From a virus, in IMG/VR virus record IMGVR_UViG_3300037069_000627, positions 1 to 30,538 of that record: DNA of 30,538 bases. One strand, 5' to 3'. The first letter of the stretch is position 1; every line of letters begins with the position of its first letter. A program made the translations under genes and the position numbers. This document shows, in pieces, positions 2,329 to 16,776 of the stretch. The notes beneath the pieces were generated by a model that was given only the letters and a program-made list of their open reading frames with translations, made no database searches and was not told the DNA's origin.

Positions 2329-2685
2329 ATGGGAACTCACATGAAAAAGAACGTGACCGTAGCGATATTCGACAAGGAAAATGATTACGGAGACGAATGG
2401 CCTCCAACCGATATCGCCGGGTTTCAAACATGGTTCACCTCGCAAGTGGCCAAGATCCCGGTGGAGTTTCTTCACACTGCCAAGATCGAGCTATCAAGCG
2501 TGGTGAGTTATGAGGACAGCGCGCCAACAATCTGCATATCCTACACAAGGCAGGAAACTGATCTGGAGCAGATCACAAGAATTCAAAGGACCGAATCAGC
2601 GCAAGCCTATGACAGACAGCGGGAGATGGAGACGCTGGCTGACTTGCTTGAGAAATACCCAAACTTCCTCGTCAATAAAGGCTGA
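2329..2685 (+). CDS. Hypothetical early phage protein (118 aa)
   Basis: The start is either 2329 (MGTHMKK, with AAGGA upstream) or 2341 (MKKNVTVAIFDKENDYG, with GGGAA upstream); both are plausible. The protein has a beta-rich core (KIELSSVVSYEDSAPTICISYTR) and a helical C-terminus ending LLEKYPNFLVNKG. It is two bases from the preceding stop and two from the next start, so it belongs to the same operon. No known family is recognised. Confidence 0.65.
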   Translation: MGTHMKKNVTVAIFDKENDYGDEWPPTDIAGFQTWFTSQVAKIPVEFLHTAKIELSSVVSYEDSAPTICISYTRQETDLEQITRIQRTESAQAYDRQREMETLADLLEKYPNFLVNKG

Positions 2686-2687
2686 CC

Positions 2688-3005
2688 ATGAGCAATGAAC
2701 TGAAACGGTATCAGGTCGAGGCCGATTTCCCAGGCACTCAGGTTTCACTGATTGAATCTGATGAGGGGAATTTGGTCTTTCACTCCGACGCCCTAGCCGC
2801 CATAGAAGCGGCTAAACCGAAGTGGGAGCCGATTGAGACGGCACCGGATGAAGGCGAGTTTCTTGTATGGATGCCAAACGAAAGAACGAAAGTGCAATCG
2901 TGCCGCCGCCGTCGAGCCATGGATGTTATCGGCGGATGTTTCGGCTTTGACCTGACGAAGCCGACCCACTGGATGCCCTTTCCCCCTCCCCCAGAAAGCG
3001 AGTAA
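2688..3005 (+). CDS. DUF551-like phage protein (105 aa)
   Basis: Residues from about 45 to the end match the DUF551 pattern: WEPIETAPDEGEFLVW near the start of the domain and THWMPFPPPPES at the end. DUF551 proteins are small, widespread in phages and prophages, and have no established function. The N-terminal 44 residues (MSNELKRYQVEADFPG) form a separate short region. It is two bases from the preceding stop and six upstream of the RNA-ligase start. Confidence 0.75.
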   Translation: MSNELKRYQVEADFPGTQVSLIESDEGNLVFHSDALAAIEAAKPKWEPIETAPDEGEFLVWMPNERTKVQSCRRRRAMDVIGGCFGFDLTKPTHWMPFPPPPESE

Positions 3006-3010
3006 GTGAA

Positions 3011-4198
3011 ATGAAAGTTACCCAAGACCAAGGCGCACGGCCAGTAAAGAACTGGGCCGTCGATATTGAAGAGCAAGCCATGCTCCAGGCCAAGAACCTG
3101 GCGCGCCTGCCATTTATTGCACCCCAAGGCGTGGCACTTATGCCAGATGCCCACAGTGGCAAAGGTTCGACCATCGGCAGCGTGATCGCGACAGAGCGGG
3201 CAATTGTGCCTGCGGCTGTCGGCGTTGACATCGGCTGTGGCATGAACGCTGTGCGCCTAAGCTTGAAAGCATCTGATCTACCGGATAGCCTAGTGGCGAT
3301 TCGTTCGGCCATTGAGGCATCAATCCCATTGGGTGCTGGCGGGGCTTATCAAGACGACTATACATGCAACGAAAACGCGCTGTTGTTGTCTCGCATGCCT
3401 ATGCCCGAATCGGCGATTGTGGCCACGTCTGGGGCCCTGCAAAAGGCTACGCGGCAGCTTGGCACGCTGGGCAGCGGAAACCATTTCATCGAGTTGTGCC
3501 TGGATGAGAACCAAGACGTTTGGATCATGCTGCACAGTGGTTCTCGTGGTATCGGAAACATGATTGGCACATACTTCATCGAGGTTGCAAAACGTCGAAT
3601 GGAGCAGTTTTTTATCAGCCTGCCTGATAGCGATCTTGCCTACTTGCCAGAGAATACCGACGACTTCAACGATTATGTTGAGGCTGTTGGCTGGGCGCAG
3701 AATTACGCGCTGGAAAACCGCCGGTCAATGATGCAATCCGTGCTCGACGTGCTGCGCAAGCTGGTGCCGGTCGAATTTACGATCACGCAAGAAGCAATCA
3801 ACTGCCATCACAACTACGTTGAGCGTGAGAACCATTTTGGCCGCAACATGTGGGTGACCCGTAAGGGAGCTATCCGGGCGCGTGTAGGCGATCTAGGCAT
3901 CATCCCTGGCTCTATGGGGCAGAAGAGCTACATCGTGCGCGGTAAGGGCAATCCTGACAGCTATTGCTCATGCAGCCATGGGGCAGGCCGGAAGATGAGC
4001 CGCGCCGAGGCTAAACGGACCTTCTCGCTTACCGACCTTGTGAACCAAACGGAAGGCGTAGAGTGCCGCAAGGATGCCGAAGTGCTGGACGAGATCCCAG
4101 GCGCATACAAGGACATTGATGTGGTCATGGCGGCGCAGGCTGACTTGATCGAGGTGGTGCACACGCTGAAACAGGTTCTTTGTGTAAAAGGGGCCTGA
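3011..4198 (+). CDS. rtcB: RtcB-type RNA ligase
   Basis: RtcB joins RNA ends bearing 2',3'-cyclic phosphate (or 3'-phosphate) and 5'-OH, using GTP and manganese. At 395 aa it is close to E. coli RtcB (408 aa) and looks intact. Visible signatures are DAHSGKG (46-52), GVDIGCGM (71-78, metal ligands D73 and C76), GSGNHF with H158, HSGSRGIGN from H175, CHHNYVERENHFG (265-277) and SHGAGR with H323, the expected guanylation histidine. It sits inside the phage early operon, six bases after a DUF551-like gene, and is followed by a terminator and a structured RNA. Likely uses are repair of host or phage tRNAs cut by defence nucleases, or ligation of a phage RNA; neither is shown by sequence. Confidence 0.93.
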   Translation: MKVTQDQGARPVKNWAVDIEEQAMLQAKNLARLPFIAPQGVALMPDAHSGKGSTIGSVIATERAIVPAAVGVDIGCGMNAVRLSLKASDLPDSLVAIRSAIEASIPLGAGGAYQDDYTCNENALLLSRMPMPESAIVATSGALQKATRQLGTLGSGNHFIELCLDENQDVWIMLHSGSRGIGNMIGTYFIEVAKRRMEQFFISLPDSDLAYLPENTDDFNDYVEAVGWAQNYALENRRSMMQSVLDVLRKLVPVEFTITQEAINCHHNYVERENHFGRNMWVTRKGAIRARVGDLGIIPGSMGQKSYIVRGKGNPDSYCSCSHGAGRKMSRAEAKRTFSLTDLVNQTEGVECRKDAEVLDEIPGAYKDIDVVMAAQADLIEVVHTLKQVLCVKGA

Positions 4199-4213
4199 CC
4201 CCAACACCACACC

Positions 4214-4236
4214 AAAGGGGCTCCGGCCCCTTTTTT
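4214..4236 (+). terminator. Intrinsic terminator after rtcB
   Basis: AAAGGGGC (4214-4221) pairs with GCCCCTTT (4226-4233) around a 4-base loop and is followed directly by a T-run (4231-4236). It lies 15 bases beyond the rtcB stop and should end or attenuate the first early transcript. Confidence 0.85.
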
Positions 4237-4311
4237 CTTTCCGACCTCGAAAAAAGTATGTAGGAGAGCGCGCCACGGGGGAGGAAGTGCTGTAAGATTG
4301 AATTACTGGAA

Positions 4312-4340
4312 GCGGCATCTTCTGGTACATCTGCGATAAT
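4312..4340 (+). promoter_or_regulatory. Putative extended -10 promoter for a non-coding RNA
   Basis: TGCGATAAT (4332-4340) is an extended -10 element (TG-n plus GATAAT, 5/6). A poor -35 (GCGGCA, 3/6) sits 17 bp upstream, as is usual for extended -10 promoters. The predicted start, 4346-4348, is two to four bases before the long inverted repeat. Confidence 0.45.
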
Positions 4341-4345
4341 GAACA

Positions 4346-4469
4346 AGAGTCCCCTAGAGGTTTTAGATGGGGCATGTGTGAGAAGAGGTATAGGGTTGTT
4401 CGCCCTGCAGAGTACCAAATCTTGCCCATGCCCGGGCCATGCCCCATCTAAGAGTTCTAGGGGATTTTT
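4346..4469 (+). ncRNA. Candidate structured phage ncRNA with 27-bp terminal helix
   Basis: Bases 4350-4376 pair with 4438-4464 in a nearly continuous 27-bp helix: one G/G mismatch (4360/4454) and two G-U pairs (4359/4455, 4362/4452). The helix base, CCCC/GGGG, is followed by TTTTT (4465-4469), as in an intrinsic terminator. The apical part holds two further hairpins: GGTA/TACC plus AGGG/CCCT (4387-4416) and GCCC/GGGC (4424-4437). With an extended -10 promoter just upstream, this looks like an autonomous transcript of about 120 nt with paired ends. No open reading frame on either strand is convincing. I do not recognise an RNA family. It lies between the rtcB terminator and the next early gene. 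Confidence 0.6.
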
Positions 4470-4782
4470 GCGTTCTGGGTCGGTGTAGGGAGGGATTGGA
4501 CGACGTTGCCCCATACATGCTTAGCAAACGGATTCATGCAACCAGTGGGTTTTGGCGTAACAGAATCGCCCGATAGGTGTGGGTCGTAGCCCCGCATAAG
4601 GATTCTGAGTGATAGCGGTTATCGAGCGACTATCACCTGTGCTCTCAGGCCTTGGCTCCGGGAAGCAGTACGCAGTAAGAAAACTCTGGGATTCATCAGG
4701 GTTGGCTTACTGCACCCTAAACCTTTCACCAAGAAGCAGACTAGGTTCTAGTAAGTAGTTCAACTAAGAAGGAAACAAGGAT
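4470..4782 (+). other. Non-coding, structured leader before the 4783 gene
   Basis: No plausible gene lies in these 313 bases. Inverted repeats suggest folded RNA: TGTGGG with CCCGCA near 4578-4596 (one wobble); CTGAG/CTCAG (4605-4609/4644-4648) enclosing TGATAG/CTATCA (4610-4615/4630-4635); GCAGTAAG/CTTACTGC (4672-4679/4706-4713); and AGGGT/ACCCT (4698-4702/4714-4718). The right arm of the third lies inside the loop of the fourth, so the two are alternatives or a pseudoknot. A Shine-Dalgarno (AAGGAAACAAGGAT) ends the region. No tRNA T-loop was found. Confidence 0.4.
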
Positions 4783-5100
4783 ATGAAAGTCGAATACAGC
4801 TCAAACAATTCCGGTGGCTACTGGTGGCTGAAGGATGAAGATTGGAAGGCGCTTGAAAAAGCAGGTTGGGTGGTCAATTGGGCCGCAAATCAAACCGAAG
4901 GGATTGGCAAGGCCGACAAAGATGGCCGCTGGCTGGGCGCGCTTGCTACAGAGGCGACCCGCGAAGGATTGTCACGCAGGATGGCGATTGCTGAGTGGGA
5001 GGAAATCACCGGGCAATTTGAGTCGGAAGAAGGTTGCCCTTGCTGCGGGAATCCACATAGCTTCACTTTTTATGACGATGACGGCAAGATGCAGTTCTGA
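4783..5100 (+). CDS. Conserved phage hypothetical with CPCC zinc motif (105 aa)
   Basis: The protein starts MKVEYSSNNSGGYWWL, continues with a helical, Trp-rich middle (TREGLSRRMAIAEWEEITG) and ends with GCPCCGNPHSFTFYDDDG, where CPCC plus a nearby His (about residues 84-91) could bind zinc. This arrangement is familiar from many phage genomes but has no assigned function. It is the first gene after the structured region at 4199-4782, with an AAGGA-type ribosome-binding site. Confidence 0.75.
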   Translation: MKVEYSSNNSGGYWWLKDEDWKALEKAGWVVNWAANQTEGIGKADKDGRWLGALATEATREGLSRRMAIAEWEEITGQFESEEGCPCCGNPHSFTFYDDDGKMQF

Positions 5101-5202: not shown

Positions 5203-5556
5203 ATGGCTCTAGATTTATTTGGCAGTGAAGTCACAGAGGTAACGGTAGACCCGCAACAGAGCTTTAAAGAGTTCTGGGAAGCCTACCCAAGCGGCGACCG
5301 GCGCACGGCAAAGCCCAAGTGCATTGCGTACTGGATCAAGAACAACTTGGAGCGCGAGGCAGAGCAGATCATTGCCCATGTGCACCACATGAAGACCGAG
5401 GACAGTTGGGTTCGTGGGTTTCATCCAATGACCATGACTTACCTGAATCAGCGCCGGTGGATGGACTGGACGCCAAGCGCTGCCCCCCAGAACAAACAGC
5501 AGGCGCTCGAATCCTCGAATGACGCTGTGTTGCGCAACTTCTTGGCGGGGCTGTGA
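5203..5556 (+). CDS. Probable phage replication-associated protein (117 aa)
   Basis: Residues 20-95 carry FKEFWEAYP, GDRRTAKPKCIAYWIK, ERE-AEQIIAHV and a conserved-looking WVRGFHPMTMTYLNQRRWMDW. This pattern (FW-x-YP start, Lys-rich helix, then YLNQRRW-x-DW) is what I associate with the C-terminal part of phage replication initiation proteins. The gene is in the slot between cro and nin-type genes that holds replication genes in lambdoid phages. It is short and lacks a visible N-terminal DNA-binding domain, so a helicase-loader or accessory role is equally possible. AGAGGTGG precedes the ATG. Confidence 0.5.
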   Translation: MALDLFGSEVTEVTVDPQQSFKEFWEAYPSGDRRTAKPKCIAYWIKNNLEREAEQIIAHVHHMKTEDSWVRGFHPMTMTYLNQRRWMDWTPSAAPQNKQQALESSNDAVLRNFLAGL

Positions 5557-6209
5557 TGACGCCAAAGGACAAAGCCCAAGTGGCCGAGATGATCACAGGC
5601 GCATACGCCTACTACCGCCAGGCGATCACGCCGTTTGTGCTGGACGTGTGGGTGAAGGCCTGCGAAACCTTCCCCGTCGAAAGCATCAGTAAAGCCCTGA
5701 GCGCGCATTTGGTTGACCCTGATCGCGGACAGTTCGCGCCCAAGATTGCCGACATTATCCGCATCCTGCAGGGCACCAAGAGCGACAAAGCCGCCATGGC
5801 CTGGAGCAAGACCCTAGACGCGGTGGGAAGCGTAGGTGCTTACTCTGACGTGGTGTTTGACGATCCGGCCATCCATGCGACGGTTGAAGACCTGGGCGGC
5901 TGGTGCAAGCTGTGCCGCACGGACTACGATGAACTGAGCTACACGCAGCACAGATTCACCAAGGCTTACGAAACCTACGTTCAGCGCGGGACGTTTGACT
6001 ATCCGCGTCGGCTCGGCGGTGAGCGCAGCCCGGACGAAATGTACGAAAAGCGCGGGCTTCAAGTTCCACGGCCTGCGATGGTGGGCGACGTGGAGAAATG
6101 CAAACAGGTGCTGGCGCTCGGGAACGCATCTGGGAAAACGCCTATCACGTTCGCTAGTCAATTGTCCAAGTTGGACGCACTGAAGATCGAGGGAGGGAAT
6201 CGGCCATGA
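5553..6209 (+). CDS. DUF6475-like phage protein, possible replication accessory (218 aa)
   Basis: The N-terminal 80 residues are helical (KDKAQVAEMITGAYAYY, VDPDRGQFAPKIADIIRIL). They are followed by a region with VVFDDPAIHATVEDLGGW, which fits the DUF6475 pattern in many phages. A Cys pair (CKLC) lies at about residues 118-121. The start is GTG at 5553 (overlapping the upstream TGA) or ATG at 5556. Location directly after the replication-associated gene suggests the lambda P position (helicase loading), but no AAA or helicase motif is visible. Confidence 0.6.
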   Translation: MMTPKDKAQVAEMITGAYAYYRQAITPFVLDVWVKACETFPVESISKALSAHLVDPDRGQFAPKIADIIRILQGTKSDKAAMAWSKTLDAVGSVGAYSDVVFDDPAIHATVEDLGGWCKLCRTDYDELSYTQHRFTKAYETYVQRGTFDYPRRLGGERSPDEMYEKRGLQVPRPAMVGDVEKCKQVLALGNASGKTPITFASQLSKLDALKIEGGNRP

Positions 6210-14587: not shown

Positions 14588-16776
14588 CAGAAAAAGACCT
14601 TCTAGAACTAGCCCGGCAACAGTACGCCGAAGCACTGGAATCGGATACGACCATCCGCGAAGAGTTCAAGGAAGATCTGCGCATCTTCGACGGTGAGGGC
14701 ATTTGGCCTGAACGCCTGCGAATGGCTCGGGAAGGCGACCCCAAAGGCGCTCGACCCTGCCTGAACATCTCCGACCTCGGCCCGCGTGTTCACCAGGTAA
14801 CCAACGACTTCCGCCAGAACCCGCCAAGCATCAAGATTCGCCCGGTTGACGACAACGCAGACGTAGACACCGCCAAGGTGTTTAACGGATTAGCTCGCCA
14901 CATGGAGCAGCAGTCTGATGCCGACATTGCCTACCAGACCTCCAACTTCTACCAGTCTGTGGGCGGTTTCGGTTATTTCCGCATGACCGAGGAAATGAAG
15001 GACGGCACTGCGGAGCTGATGATTAAGACCATCGCGAACCCTCTGTCTGTGAAGATGGACCCGTTTGCCATGGACCCGACCGGCTGCGATGCACGGTTCT
15101 GCTTTATTGACGAAGACATTCCAAAAGCCACGTTCAAGCGCGAGTATCCCAATGTGGACATGGAAGGTTGGGGCGAAGGCGACGAGGAAAGCGGCTGGAT
15201 CACCGAGGACTCTGTGCGAGTAGCGGAGTGGTTCAACATCGAGGAAGTTTCGTCCAAGAACAAGATCCAAACCGAGGCTTACGGTGAGCTTGGCGAGGAT
15301 GACTATTGGGCCAAAGCCGAAGAATTGGGCGAGCAACCTAAAGTAAAGGCATCTGGCATCGAGAAGCGCAAGGTATGTGTCTGGCGCAAGATGGTGGGGA
15401 CCAAGATCCTTAAGACTGTCACGCTGCCGATTTACTACATCCCCGTCTTCCGCATGGCTGGCGAGACCTACATCACCCAAGGTCGGCGCGTGTTCAAGGG
15501 CATGGTTCGGGACAGCCGGGATGCGGTTCGCTCCGTGTCTTACACCTTTTCTGCTTTTATCGAAACAGTGGCATTGCAGCCAAAGGCTCCATTTATTGGA
15601 GTTGCTGGTCAATTTGACGGTTTTGAAAGAGATTGGGCCGGTGCAAACACCGAAAACCATGCATATCTCGAATACAACTCCGTTGACATTAACGGCAAGG
15701 ACGCGCCACCGCCTCAGCGGTCTCAGCCACCACTAGCATCACAAGGGCTGATGCAGGCTTTGACATTGGCTCAGAACGCGCTCAAAGACACTTCCGGCCT
15801 GGGCGCTGCATCTCTTGGCCAAAAGGGTAATGAGACCAGCGGCAAAGCAATCCTGGCCCGCCAGCGTGAAGGCGATGTTTCGACGTTCCACCTACAGGAC
15901 AATGCAGCCAAGGCTATTCGGCAATGTGGCCGCGTGTTTGTGCAGTGGGCGCCGAAGGTTTACGACGAACCGGTTGTTGCTCGCATCATTGGGGAAGATG
16001 GTTCGGCTGATCAGGCCTATCTCGACCCATCGCAAGAGCAGTCGGTTCGCAAGATCAGCATGCCCGACGGCTCAATTCGCAGCATCTACAACCTGGGTGT
16101 GGGCAAGTACGACGTAATCGCCTCGGTAGGCCCAAGCTACACCACCAAGCGTGTCGAGCAGGCCGAGATGATGAATCAACTGTTCCAGGCCTTCCCGCAA
16201 GCCTTCCCGGTGCTGGGCGATATTTACCTTGAGATGCAGGACGGACCGGGCATGGACCGGATGGCAAAGCGCTTGAAAGCCATGCTGCCACCTCAAGCTG
16301 CTGCGGCGGATGAGGAAGAGAACCAAGTTCCGATCCCGCAAGAAGTTCAGGCCAAGCTGAAGCAGATGCAGGACTTGCTGCAACAAGGTCAGCAAGCAGT
16401 AAATGAGCTGATGCAAGAGAACCAGAAACTACAGCAGCAAGTGGCATCGAAAGAGGCTGAGGTCCAGGCCAAGGTTTACGGCGAGAACGAAGAGACCGAG
16501 CGCACCAAGATTGACGCCGCGAAGTCGATCCAGATTGCTGAGATGAACAACAACAGCAAAGAAGCCATCGCCGGTTTGCAACAGCAGATGAGCGAGATGC
16601 AACAAGCGTTTGAACAGCAGCGTCTTTTCATTGAGACGATCCAGGCTCAGAAGCAAATGGATCACTCGCAAGGTATGGACATGGAAAACATGCGCCAGAG
16701 CCAAGAACAATCCCAATTCGACCGAGAGCAAGCAATTGCCCAGAGTCAACAACCGACACAGCCTTCGGGCGTGTAA
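14584..16776 (+). CDS. P22-type portal protein
   Basis: The portal is the dodecameric ring at one vertex of the capsid that passes DNA during packaging and ejection and nucleates assembly. The 730-aa length matches P22 gp1 (725 aa). The N-terminal region (ARPCLNISDLGPRVHQVTND, FRQNPPSIKIRPVDDNADVD, SVGGFGYFRMTEEM) is typical of the family. The last 150 residues are rich in Gln and strongly helical (LKQMQDLLQQGQQAVNELM and onward), consistent with the long C-terminal barrel helices of P22 portal. Followed closely by scaffold and coat genes. Confidence 0.92.
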   Translation: MTEKDLLELARQQYAEALESDTTIREEFKEDLRIFDGEGIWPERLRMAREGDPKGARPCLNISDLGPRVHQVTNDFRQNPPSIKIRPVDDNADVDTAKVFNGLARHMEQQSDADIAYQTSNFYQSVGGFGYFRMTEEMKDGTAELMIKTIANPLSVKMDPFAMDPTGCDARFCFIDEDIPKATFKREYPNVDMEGWGEGDEESGWITEDSVRVAEWFNIEEVSSKNKIQTEAYGELGEDDYWAKAEELGEQPKVKASGIEKRKVCVWRKMVGTKILKTVTLPIYYIPVFRMAGETYITQGRRVFKGMVRDSRDAVRSVSYTFSAFIETVALQPKAPFIGVAGQFDGFERDWAGANTENHAYLEYNSVDINGKDAPPPQRSQPPLASQGLMQALTLAQNALKDTSGLGAASLGQKGNETSGKAILARQREGDVSTFHLQDNAAKAIRQCGRVFVQWAPKVYDEPVVARIIGEDGSADQAYLDPSQEQSVRKISMPDGSIRSIYNLGVGKYDVIASVGPSYTTKRVEQAEMMNQLFQAFPQAFPVLGDIYLEMQDGPGMDRMAKRLKAMLPPQAAAADEEENQVPIPQEVQAKLKQMQDLLQQGQQAVNELMQENQKLQQQVASKEAEVQAKVYGENEETERTKIDAAKSIQIAEMNNNSKEAIAGLQQQMSEMQQAFEQQRLFIETIQAQKQMDHSQGMDMENMRQSQEQSQFDREQAIAQSQQPTQPSGV

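Follow-up and report, generated by a model that had tools for sequence, protein, structure and literature searches.

The window, the whole stretch of DNA analysed here, comprises the 30,538 bases of the virus record IMGVR_UViG_3300037069_000627. Portal matches named "phage P22 like portal protein" indicate that the source virus is a P22-like podophage. Between rtcB (ending at 4198) and the next gene (starting at 4783) lies a structured element. The features of this locus are as follows.

3011-4198, + strand: rtcB, judged an incidental neighbour from the comparison of neighbouring genes.
4214-4240, + strand: predicted intrinsic terminator of the rtcB unit, separating rtcB from the RNA gene.
4293-4298, + strand: putative -10 (TAAGAT) of the RNA gene's own promoter, the best sigma70 match, at a position common to seven members of the family and weak in the window.
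4304-4327, + strand: P0, a 5' hairpin with the loop CGGCAU (4313-4318), present in 13 of 13 members.
4350-4376, + strand: 5' arm of P1, from folding and covariation.
4380-4423, + strand: P2, a variable apical hairpin, from folding; it is kept despite changes between L168 and L170.
4424-4437, + strand: P3, a hairpin with the loop AUGCCC, 5 bp of which are complementary to the P0 loop, from folding, covariation and loop comparison.
4438-4464, + strand: 3' arm of P1, from folding and covariation.
4465-4469, + strand: U-run, from the sequence presumed to form an intrinsic terminator together with P1.
4470-4782, + strand: non-coding gap after the RNA, not unusually stable in the window (z -0.4).
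5203-5556, + strand: O-type replication initiator of 117 aa, C-terminal domain only, matching residues 176-265 of phrog_9474.
5553-6209, + strand: gene overlapping the short O gene, carrying DUF6475, with a distant match to the helicase loader phrog_2289.

On the minus strand, overlapping ORFs of 129 and 159 aa (3968-4514) run across the element. They are likely by-products of the palindrome, and annotation software may call them genes.

A first-pass annotation, based on the letters of the window, had described a 27-bp helix with one mismatch and two G-U pairs. Folding bore this out: P1 pairs 4350-4376 with 4438-4464 over 27 positions, with a single mismatch (G4360) and two G-U pairs. The two apical hairpins placed inside the helix correspond to P2 and P3, and the GGGG and TTTTT reported after it read GGGG A TTTTT behind the 3' arm. 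The minimum free energy of the 124 nt was -68.9 kcal/mol versus -36.4 +/- 3.7 for 200 dinucleotide shuffles (z -8.7), none of which was as good; the minus strand folds more weakly (-55.6 kcal/mol). The element is the window's most stable fold of its kind and occurs there in a single copy. When 1.37 Mb of viral DNA was scanned with a descriptor of stem, junction and T-run (duplex energy <= -39 kcal/mol), only the element and its homologues were returned. The annotation knew of no family with this layout, and the element had no match at the gathering cut-off in Rfam 15, which we take to include pRNA, 6S, GOLLD, ROOL and YrlA. At E<=5, only chance-level matches appeared, the best being a plant miRNA with 18 bits against a cut-off of 85. 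ARAGORN found no tRNA in the element, and no T-loop motif was seen in its sequence. Moreover, no antisense complement of at least 12 nt was present elsewhere in the window; an antisense partner may still come from the opposite strand of the locus itself. With regard to the gene and the fold alone, we are nearly certain that the element is an RNA gene with a selected fold, and we infer that this gene is transcribed.

The family now comprises 13 distinct members: the window, L123, L134, L168, L170, L172, L208, L225, L228, L245, L292 and two elements in named phages, Xanthomonas phage Kintu and Stenotrophomonas phage S72. In all 13, P2 and P3 are enclosed by a P1 of about 25 bp. L134 and L123 were found by a long-stem scan of terminase-related contigs and have the three-way junction and T-run with largely different letters. 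L168, L170 and L172 were added by a motif pattern in viral contigs, and L208 by a second pattern (model E 3.3e-8). A held-out covariance model built from L168, L170, L134 and L172 only recovered the window at 39.5 bits (E 1.2e-7 over 1 Mb) and L123, also left out, at E 2.9e-6 over 1 Mb. Around O-type initiator genes, L245 (E 2e-11), L246 and L228 (E 6e-8) were found; L246 is identical to L245 over the compared stretch, and the two were counted once. L225 and L292 were recognised by eye near O-type initiator genes, with model matches of E 1.7e-5 (filters off) and only 0.09, respectively. Kintu (PP313117.1, about 33,680-33,842; model E 2.5e-10, fold z -6.6) and S72 (PQ492157.1, about 14,647-14,753 with P0 further upstream; model E 7e-4, fold z -7.2) complete the set. 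Since the searches used exact motifs from early members, the number and distribution of members are biased, and many of the contigs searched were fragments.

The elements of the window, L123, L168 and L208 had no DNA similarity to 50,697 phage records, and L172 matched these only via a separate RNA downstream of its element. The exact P1 palindrome was absent from the viral contigs. Twelve pattern matches in genome contigs were discarded as chance because all fold differently. The model gave no match at E 0.01 over 369 genomes of one class, a search that shows little as it had stricter filters and no positive control. There was also no match in the stretches of phages DSL-LC05, Shpa, AP1, PS-1 and two Manatee Spring phages, nor in the Pseudomonas phages Solano and Hali and the Bordetella phages IFTN2 and PHB09. 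The initiators of Hali and PHB09 are full-length; what seemed to be a gap in Solano reads as coding sequence. Paracoccus phage Shpa (L212, NC_041868.1) has a non-coding gap at 33,977-34,392, where a junction is enclosed by a stem of about 20 bp; this gap had no motif in common with the RNA family. We found no description of the RNA in the papers searched; as several published lists of candidate RNAs stand outside Rfam, it may nevertheless have been described. The RNA family is new in having no Rfam match, and we claim novelty for the family, not for a mechanism.

The covariation check proposed for the helix was run, and compensatory changes were found. In seven aligned members, both sides had changed at 22 of 36 pairs, with 236/243 cells paired. 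Paired cells and pairs with both-side changes were 35/35 and 5/5 in P0 (5-bp core), 112/119 and 8/17 in outer P1, 61/61 and 6/10 in inner P1, and 28/28 and 3/4 in P3. The pairing values of the helices were never reached in 2000 partner shuffles, and sliding the register roughly halved them. The first MAFFT alignments had put the arms wrongly, so the members were aligned by hand for the covariation counts, with shuffling and sliding as controls; because this alignment is manual (one bulged T of L208 was set aside), the numbers lean towards structure. The matches of the held-out model are independent of it. On this comparative evidence, the fold is under selection, its shape being kept while its letters change. 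Positions 11-12 of P1 are a weak spot, with a mismatch or wobble, in the aligned members. An invariant UUUAG/CUAA motif, at one stage taken for a protein site, was withdrawn because it is absent from L225, L228, L245 and L292.

The loops of P0 and P3 are complementary over 4-7 bp across the 13 members. They read CGGCAU/AUGCCC in the window (5 bp), CGGCAU/AUGCCA in L170 (5 bp), UGGC/GCCA in L134, L172, L123, L208 and Kintu (4 bp), CUGGCA/UGCCAG in L228 (6 bp), UGUGCG/CGCACA in L292 (6 bp) and GUAGCAG/CUGCUAC in S72 (7 bp); L168 has 4 bp. L225 (UGGCAG/CUGCCA) and L245 (CUGCCA/UGGCAG) each form 6 bp with the strands swapped relative to each other. Watson-Crick pairs stand at 56 of 66 loop positions versus 31 expected with exchanged loops, a value reached in 0 of 50,000 shuffles. 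Loop registers were chosen by eye, and a register-free count agrees. To judge from these loops, the P0-P3 contact covaries and was rewritten several times in evolution. If the P0 loop pairs with the P3 loop, the 5' hairpin docks at the junction or two RNA molecules are joined; intra- and intermolecular pairing predict identical covariation.

The start of the RNA has to be revised. The P0 hairpin stands upstream of P1 in 13/13 members, with a linker of 23-30 nt in the seven measured, and shuffled leaders formed a P0-type hairpin with GGCA in its loop in 0.2-1.4% of cases. In these seven members, the best sigma70 match has a spacer of 17 bp and stops 6-9 nt short of P0; this promoter is strong in L123, L134, L172 and L208, and that of the window is not above chance. 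The annotation had placed an extended -10 at 4332-4340 and proposed an RNA of about 120 nt with paired ends. The letters TGCGATAAT do stand at 4332-4340; however, a generic promoter scan returned nothing there, and the start in the homologues lies 30-40 nt further upstream. Since the homologue promoters are upstream of P0, the proposed extended -10 would fall inside the RNA. A start near 4300-4305 and a length of about 165-170 nt are probable for the RNA, and its 5' end is probably not paired with the P1 helix, which P0 (4304-4327) precedes. At the other end, the T-run is found in 12/13 members; S72 is without it, yet keeps the fold.

The genes upstream of the RNA vary and include rtcB, NinG with a small gene, helicase-primase and methyltransferase genes. 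The element does lie downstream of rtcB in the window, as annotated. However, rtcB is present in one of seven records carrying the RNA, and the model had no match in 66 loci around other phage rtcB genes or in 13 whole rtcB-bearing contigs. Therefore, the position behind rtcB is incidental, and rtcB was rejected as the partner of the RNA. The blast similarity between L134 and L172 is a block of 220-230 bases that ends just after the T-run, and the DNA beyond is unrelated, which suggests that the element behaves as a cassette. This block and the conserved, covarying structure uphold the description of a discrete non-coding gene. In the members read, the RNA is followed by about 270-530 nt of non-coding DNA, and several of these gaps had no unusual stability.

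Other structures were noted near some members. In L172 (7769-8000; the same region in L217), a second structured RNA with a 20-bp closing stem (z -5) lies behind the element, and in L123 (5299-5445), another structure with a long stem and multiple hairpins (27 bp, -79 kcal/mol) lies about 190 nt behind it. At L221:3174-3278, a promoter-like sequence, a small hairpin, a three-way-junction stem and a T-run stand directly upstream of a replication gene. This locus, in a relative of the window's 5553-6209 gene, scored 18.5 bits (R1) and is possibly a very distant family member.

The better-supported genomic partner is the replication module rather than rtcB. Eleven of the 13 members (window, L134, L172, L123, L208, L225, L228, L245, L292, Kintu and S72) are followed downstream by an O-type initiator of which only the C-terminal domain is left. 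In these short initiators, no more than about 45 residues precede the C-terminal region that was matched (e.g., residues 218-292 of phrog_678 or 176-265 of phrog_9474), whereas full-length relatives have 120-280 extra residues, which match initiator N-terminal regions in the three tested. With one uniform descriptor, strong matches were found only beside short initiators and in 0/28 full-length clusters. Among records found via other genes and not via the RNA, six of nine clusters with short initiators had it and none of 28 with full-length ones did (one-sided Fisher 3.6e-5); L225 and L292, which are among the six positives, were recognised by eye, and the clusters are not fully independent lineages. 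Blind descriptor matches alone gave 3/9 versus 0/28 (p 0.011). L088 and L266 have a short initiator with no RNA recognised nearby. In L168 and L170, the RNA stands beside helicase-primase genes and no O gene was seen; the gene behind the L168 element (2500-2928, minus strand) has a weak match to the hairpin domain of Acb2/Tad1, a family of anti-defence signal sponges (25.6 bits versus a cut-off of 27). Rha/KilAC genes are present in L225, L228 and L245, and such other genes could supply DNA binding instead. The gap contained no iteron-like direct repeats, and GC skew revealed no switch and no origin signal.

The observations comprise the fold and its covariation, the recurrence of the element among unrelated flanks and its link with C-terminal-only initiators. 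Since the RNA usually stands beside a shortened initiator gene, it may help phages to start DNA copying. We tentatively favor a role in the start of phage replication, in which the RNA would replace the missing origin-binding domain of the initiator, and we infer every step of it. An independent phage gene would yield an RNA of roughly 165 nt consisting of P0, the linker, P1 enclosing P2 and P3, and the U-run. The C-terminal part that most of these phages keep of the O-type initiator would, by analogy with lambda O, recruit the helicase loader. The RNA and the gap behind it would supply the role of the lost DNA-binding half, possibly by marking the origin, opening it or priming synthesis. A more specific version, that origin recognition passed from the N-terminal domain of O to a folded kissing-loop RNA and that the remaining protein only recruits the helicase loader, is conceivable and rather doubtful. 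There is a precedent in mycobacteriophages without repA, for which a non-coding RNA region is needed for replication (PMC7157519).

Other roles would also agree with parts of these results. The RNA may act in trans as a decoy or scaffold for a host or phage protein, much as adenovirus VA RNA does, with P1 binding or blunting a factor that handles dsRNA, for example RNase III or a sensor of a defence system. The autonomous cassette with differing flanks, the many different upstream neighbours among homologues and the weak spot within P1 suit such a role, which we regard as somewhat unlikely; it leaves the link with C-terminal-only initiators unexplained, no protein partner was identified, and the RNA-repair gene rtcB is not a neighbour common to the members. 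A further candidate role is that of a cis-acting leader, made just behind a sigma70 promoter of the early or the replication operon. It would be an attenuator or, like HK022 put, an antitermination RNA, and its target would be the polymerase that goes on into the replication genes. Promoter, folded RNA, T-run and replication genes follow in that order on one strand in most members, and the putL RNA of HK022 is directly behind an early promoter (PMC9378689). However, the put RNA, at about 70 nt with two stem-loops, differs in size and layout, the present RNA ends in canonical terminator form in 12/13 members, and L134 and L172 have unrelated DNA behind it; we consider a leader unlikely.

The remaining alternatives are far less probable. 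A packaging or multimer RNA resembling phi29 pRNA, with the P0-P3 contact between molecules, would account for the pairing of the arms, both apical hairpins and the covariation between the loops. This is improbable: the terminase large subunit (12485) and portal (14584) genes are 8-10 kb away in the window with no adjoining packaging genes. Whereas pRNA is located beside packaging genes at a genome end, the element stands within the replication module, at a distance of 8 kb from the terminase gene. Moreover, there was no Rfam match, and a linker of hardly varying length (23-30 nt), which has to span a helix of about 25 bp, fits a contact within one molecule. A strong terminator or a DNA palindrome only (a mobile repeat or a packaging or recombination site) is very improbable; P1 with the U-run has terminator form and its arms are inverted repeats, but conserved G-U pairs, a 4-bp P3 and P0-P3 covariation would be senseless for DNA or a plain terminator, the element is single-copy in the window, and S72 dispenses with the T-run. 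Ro, Y RNA and RtcB form one operon in some bacteria, and the long stem near the RNA ends and the adjoining rtcB of the window recall a bacterial Y RNA. We give this idea almost no credence because no Ro (TROVE) gene was found in seven records (which may be fragments), only one of these has rtcB, no YrlA match appeared even at E 5, and no T-loop-like module was seen.

The RNA family is unannotated in cultured phages, which makes its role testable now. If the replication role is true, RNA and protein would share or swap the job of finding the replication origin, and the replication of phages that have half an O protein would be explained. If it is false, an autonomous phage RNA gene is still added that existing libraries miss, partly because the helix sequence is almost free to change.

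We also noted a candidate large RNA of another type. In Stenotrophomonas phage CUB19 (L210, OM638088.1), an unannotated non-coding stretch of 800 nt (about 41,067-41,865) lies directly before a six-tRNA array and has an unannotated tRNA-like sequence at its 3' end. Its fold z is -11.5, and Rfam gave no match up to E 2. Stretches like it are present in Kintu, S72, SOVA965 and Silvergun, and the RNA at L172:7769-8000, which has a T-arm-like hairpin, is 77% identical to the 3' part of the CUB19 stretch. The latter has the look of one more large, ornate RNA of phages, placed as GOLLD and ROOL are.

Several known RNAs are similar in form to the present one. Adenovirus VA RNA has a long terminal stem, a three-way junction and a loop-loop contact; the two are alike in all three, and we claim no common ancestry. 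The phi29 pRNA has paired arms, two apical hairpins and loop-loop pairing, whereas the present RNA has the extra 5' hairpin P0, is found in other phages and stands in the replication module. ColE1 RNA I and RNA II are structured RNAs with loop-loop contacts at an origin; the fold differs here, and the window has no 12-nt antisense complement elsewhere. HK022 put is likewise a phage RNA directly behind a promoter and is unlike it in its two stem-loops and length of about 70 nt. GOLLD and ROOL are phage-encoded structured RNAs of unknown function (PMC12286853); the present RNA has about a quarter of their length, is not located at tRNA arrays and has no Rfam match. The RNA origins of the mycobacterial prophages RedRock, Alma and LadyBird were compared by description. 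These phages are without a RepA-like initiator, whereas a C-terminal initiator remains here; they are similar in that a non-coding RNA region serves phages in which a replication initiator protein is missing (PMC7157519).
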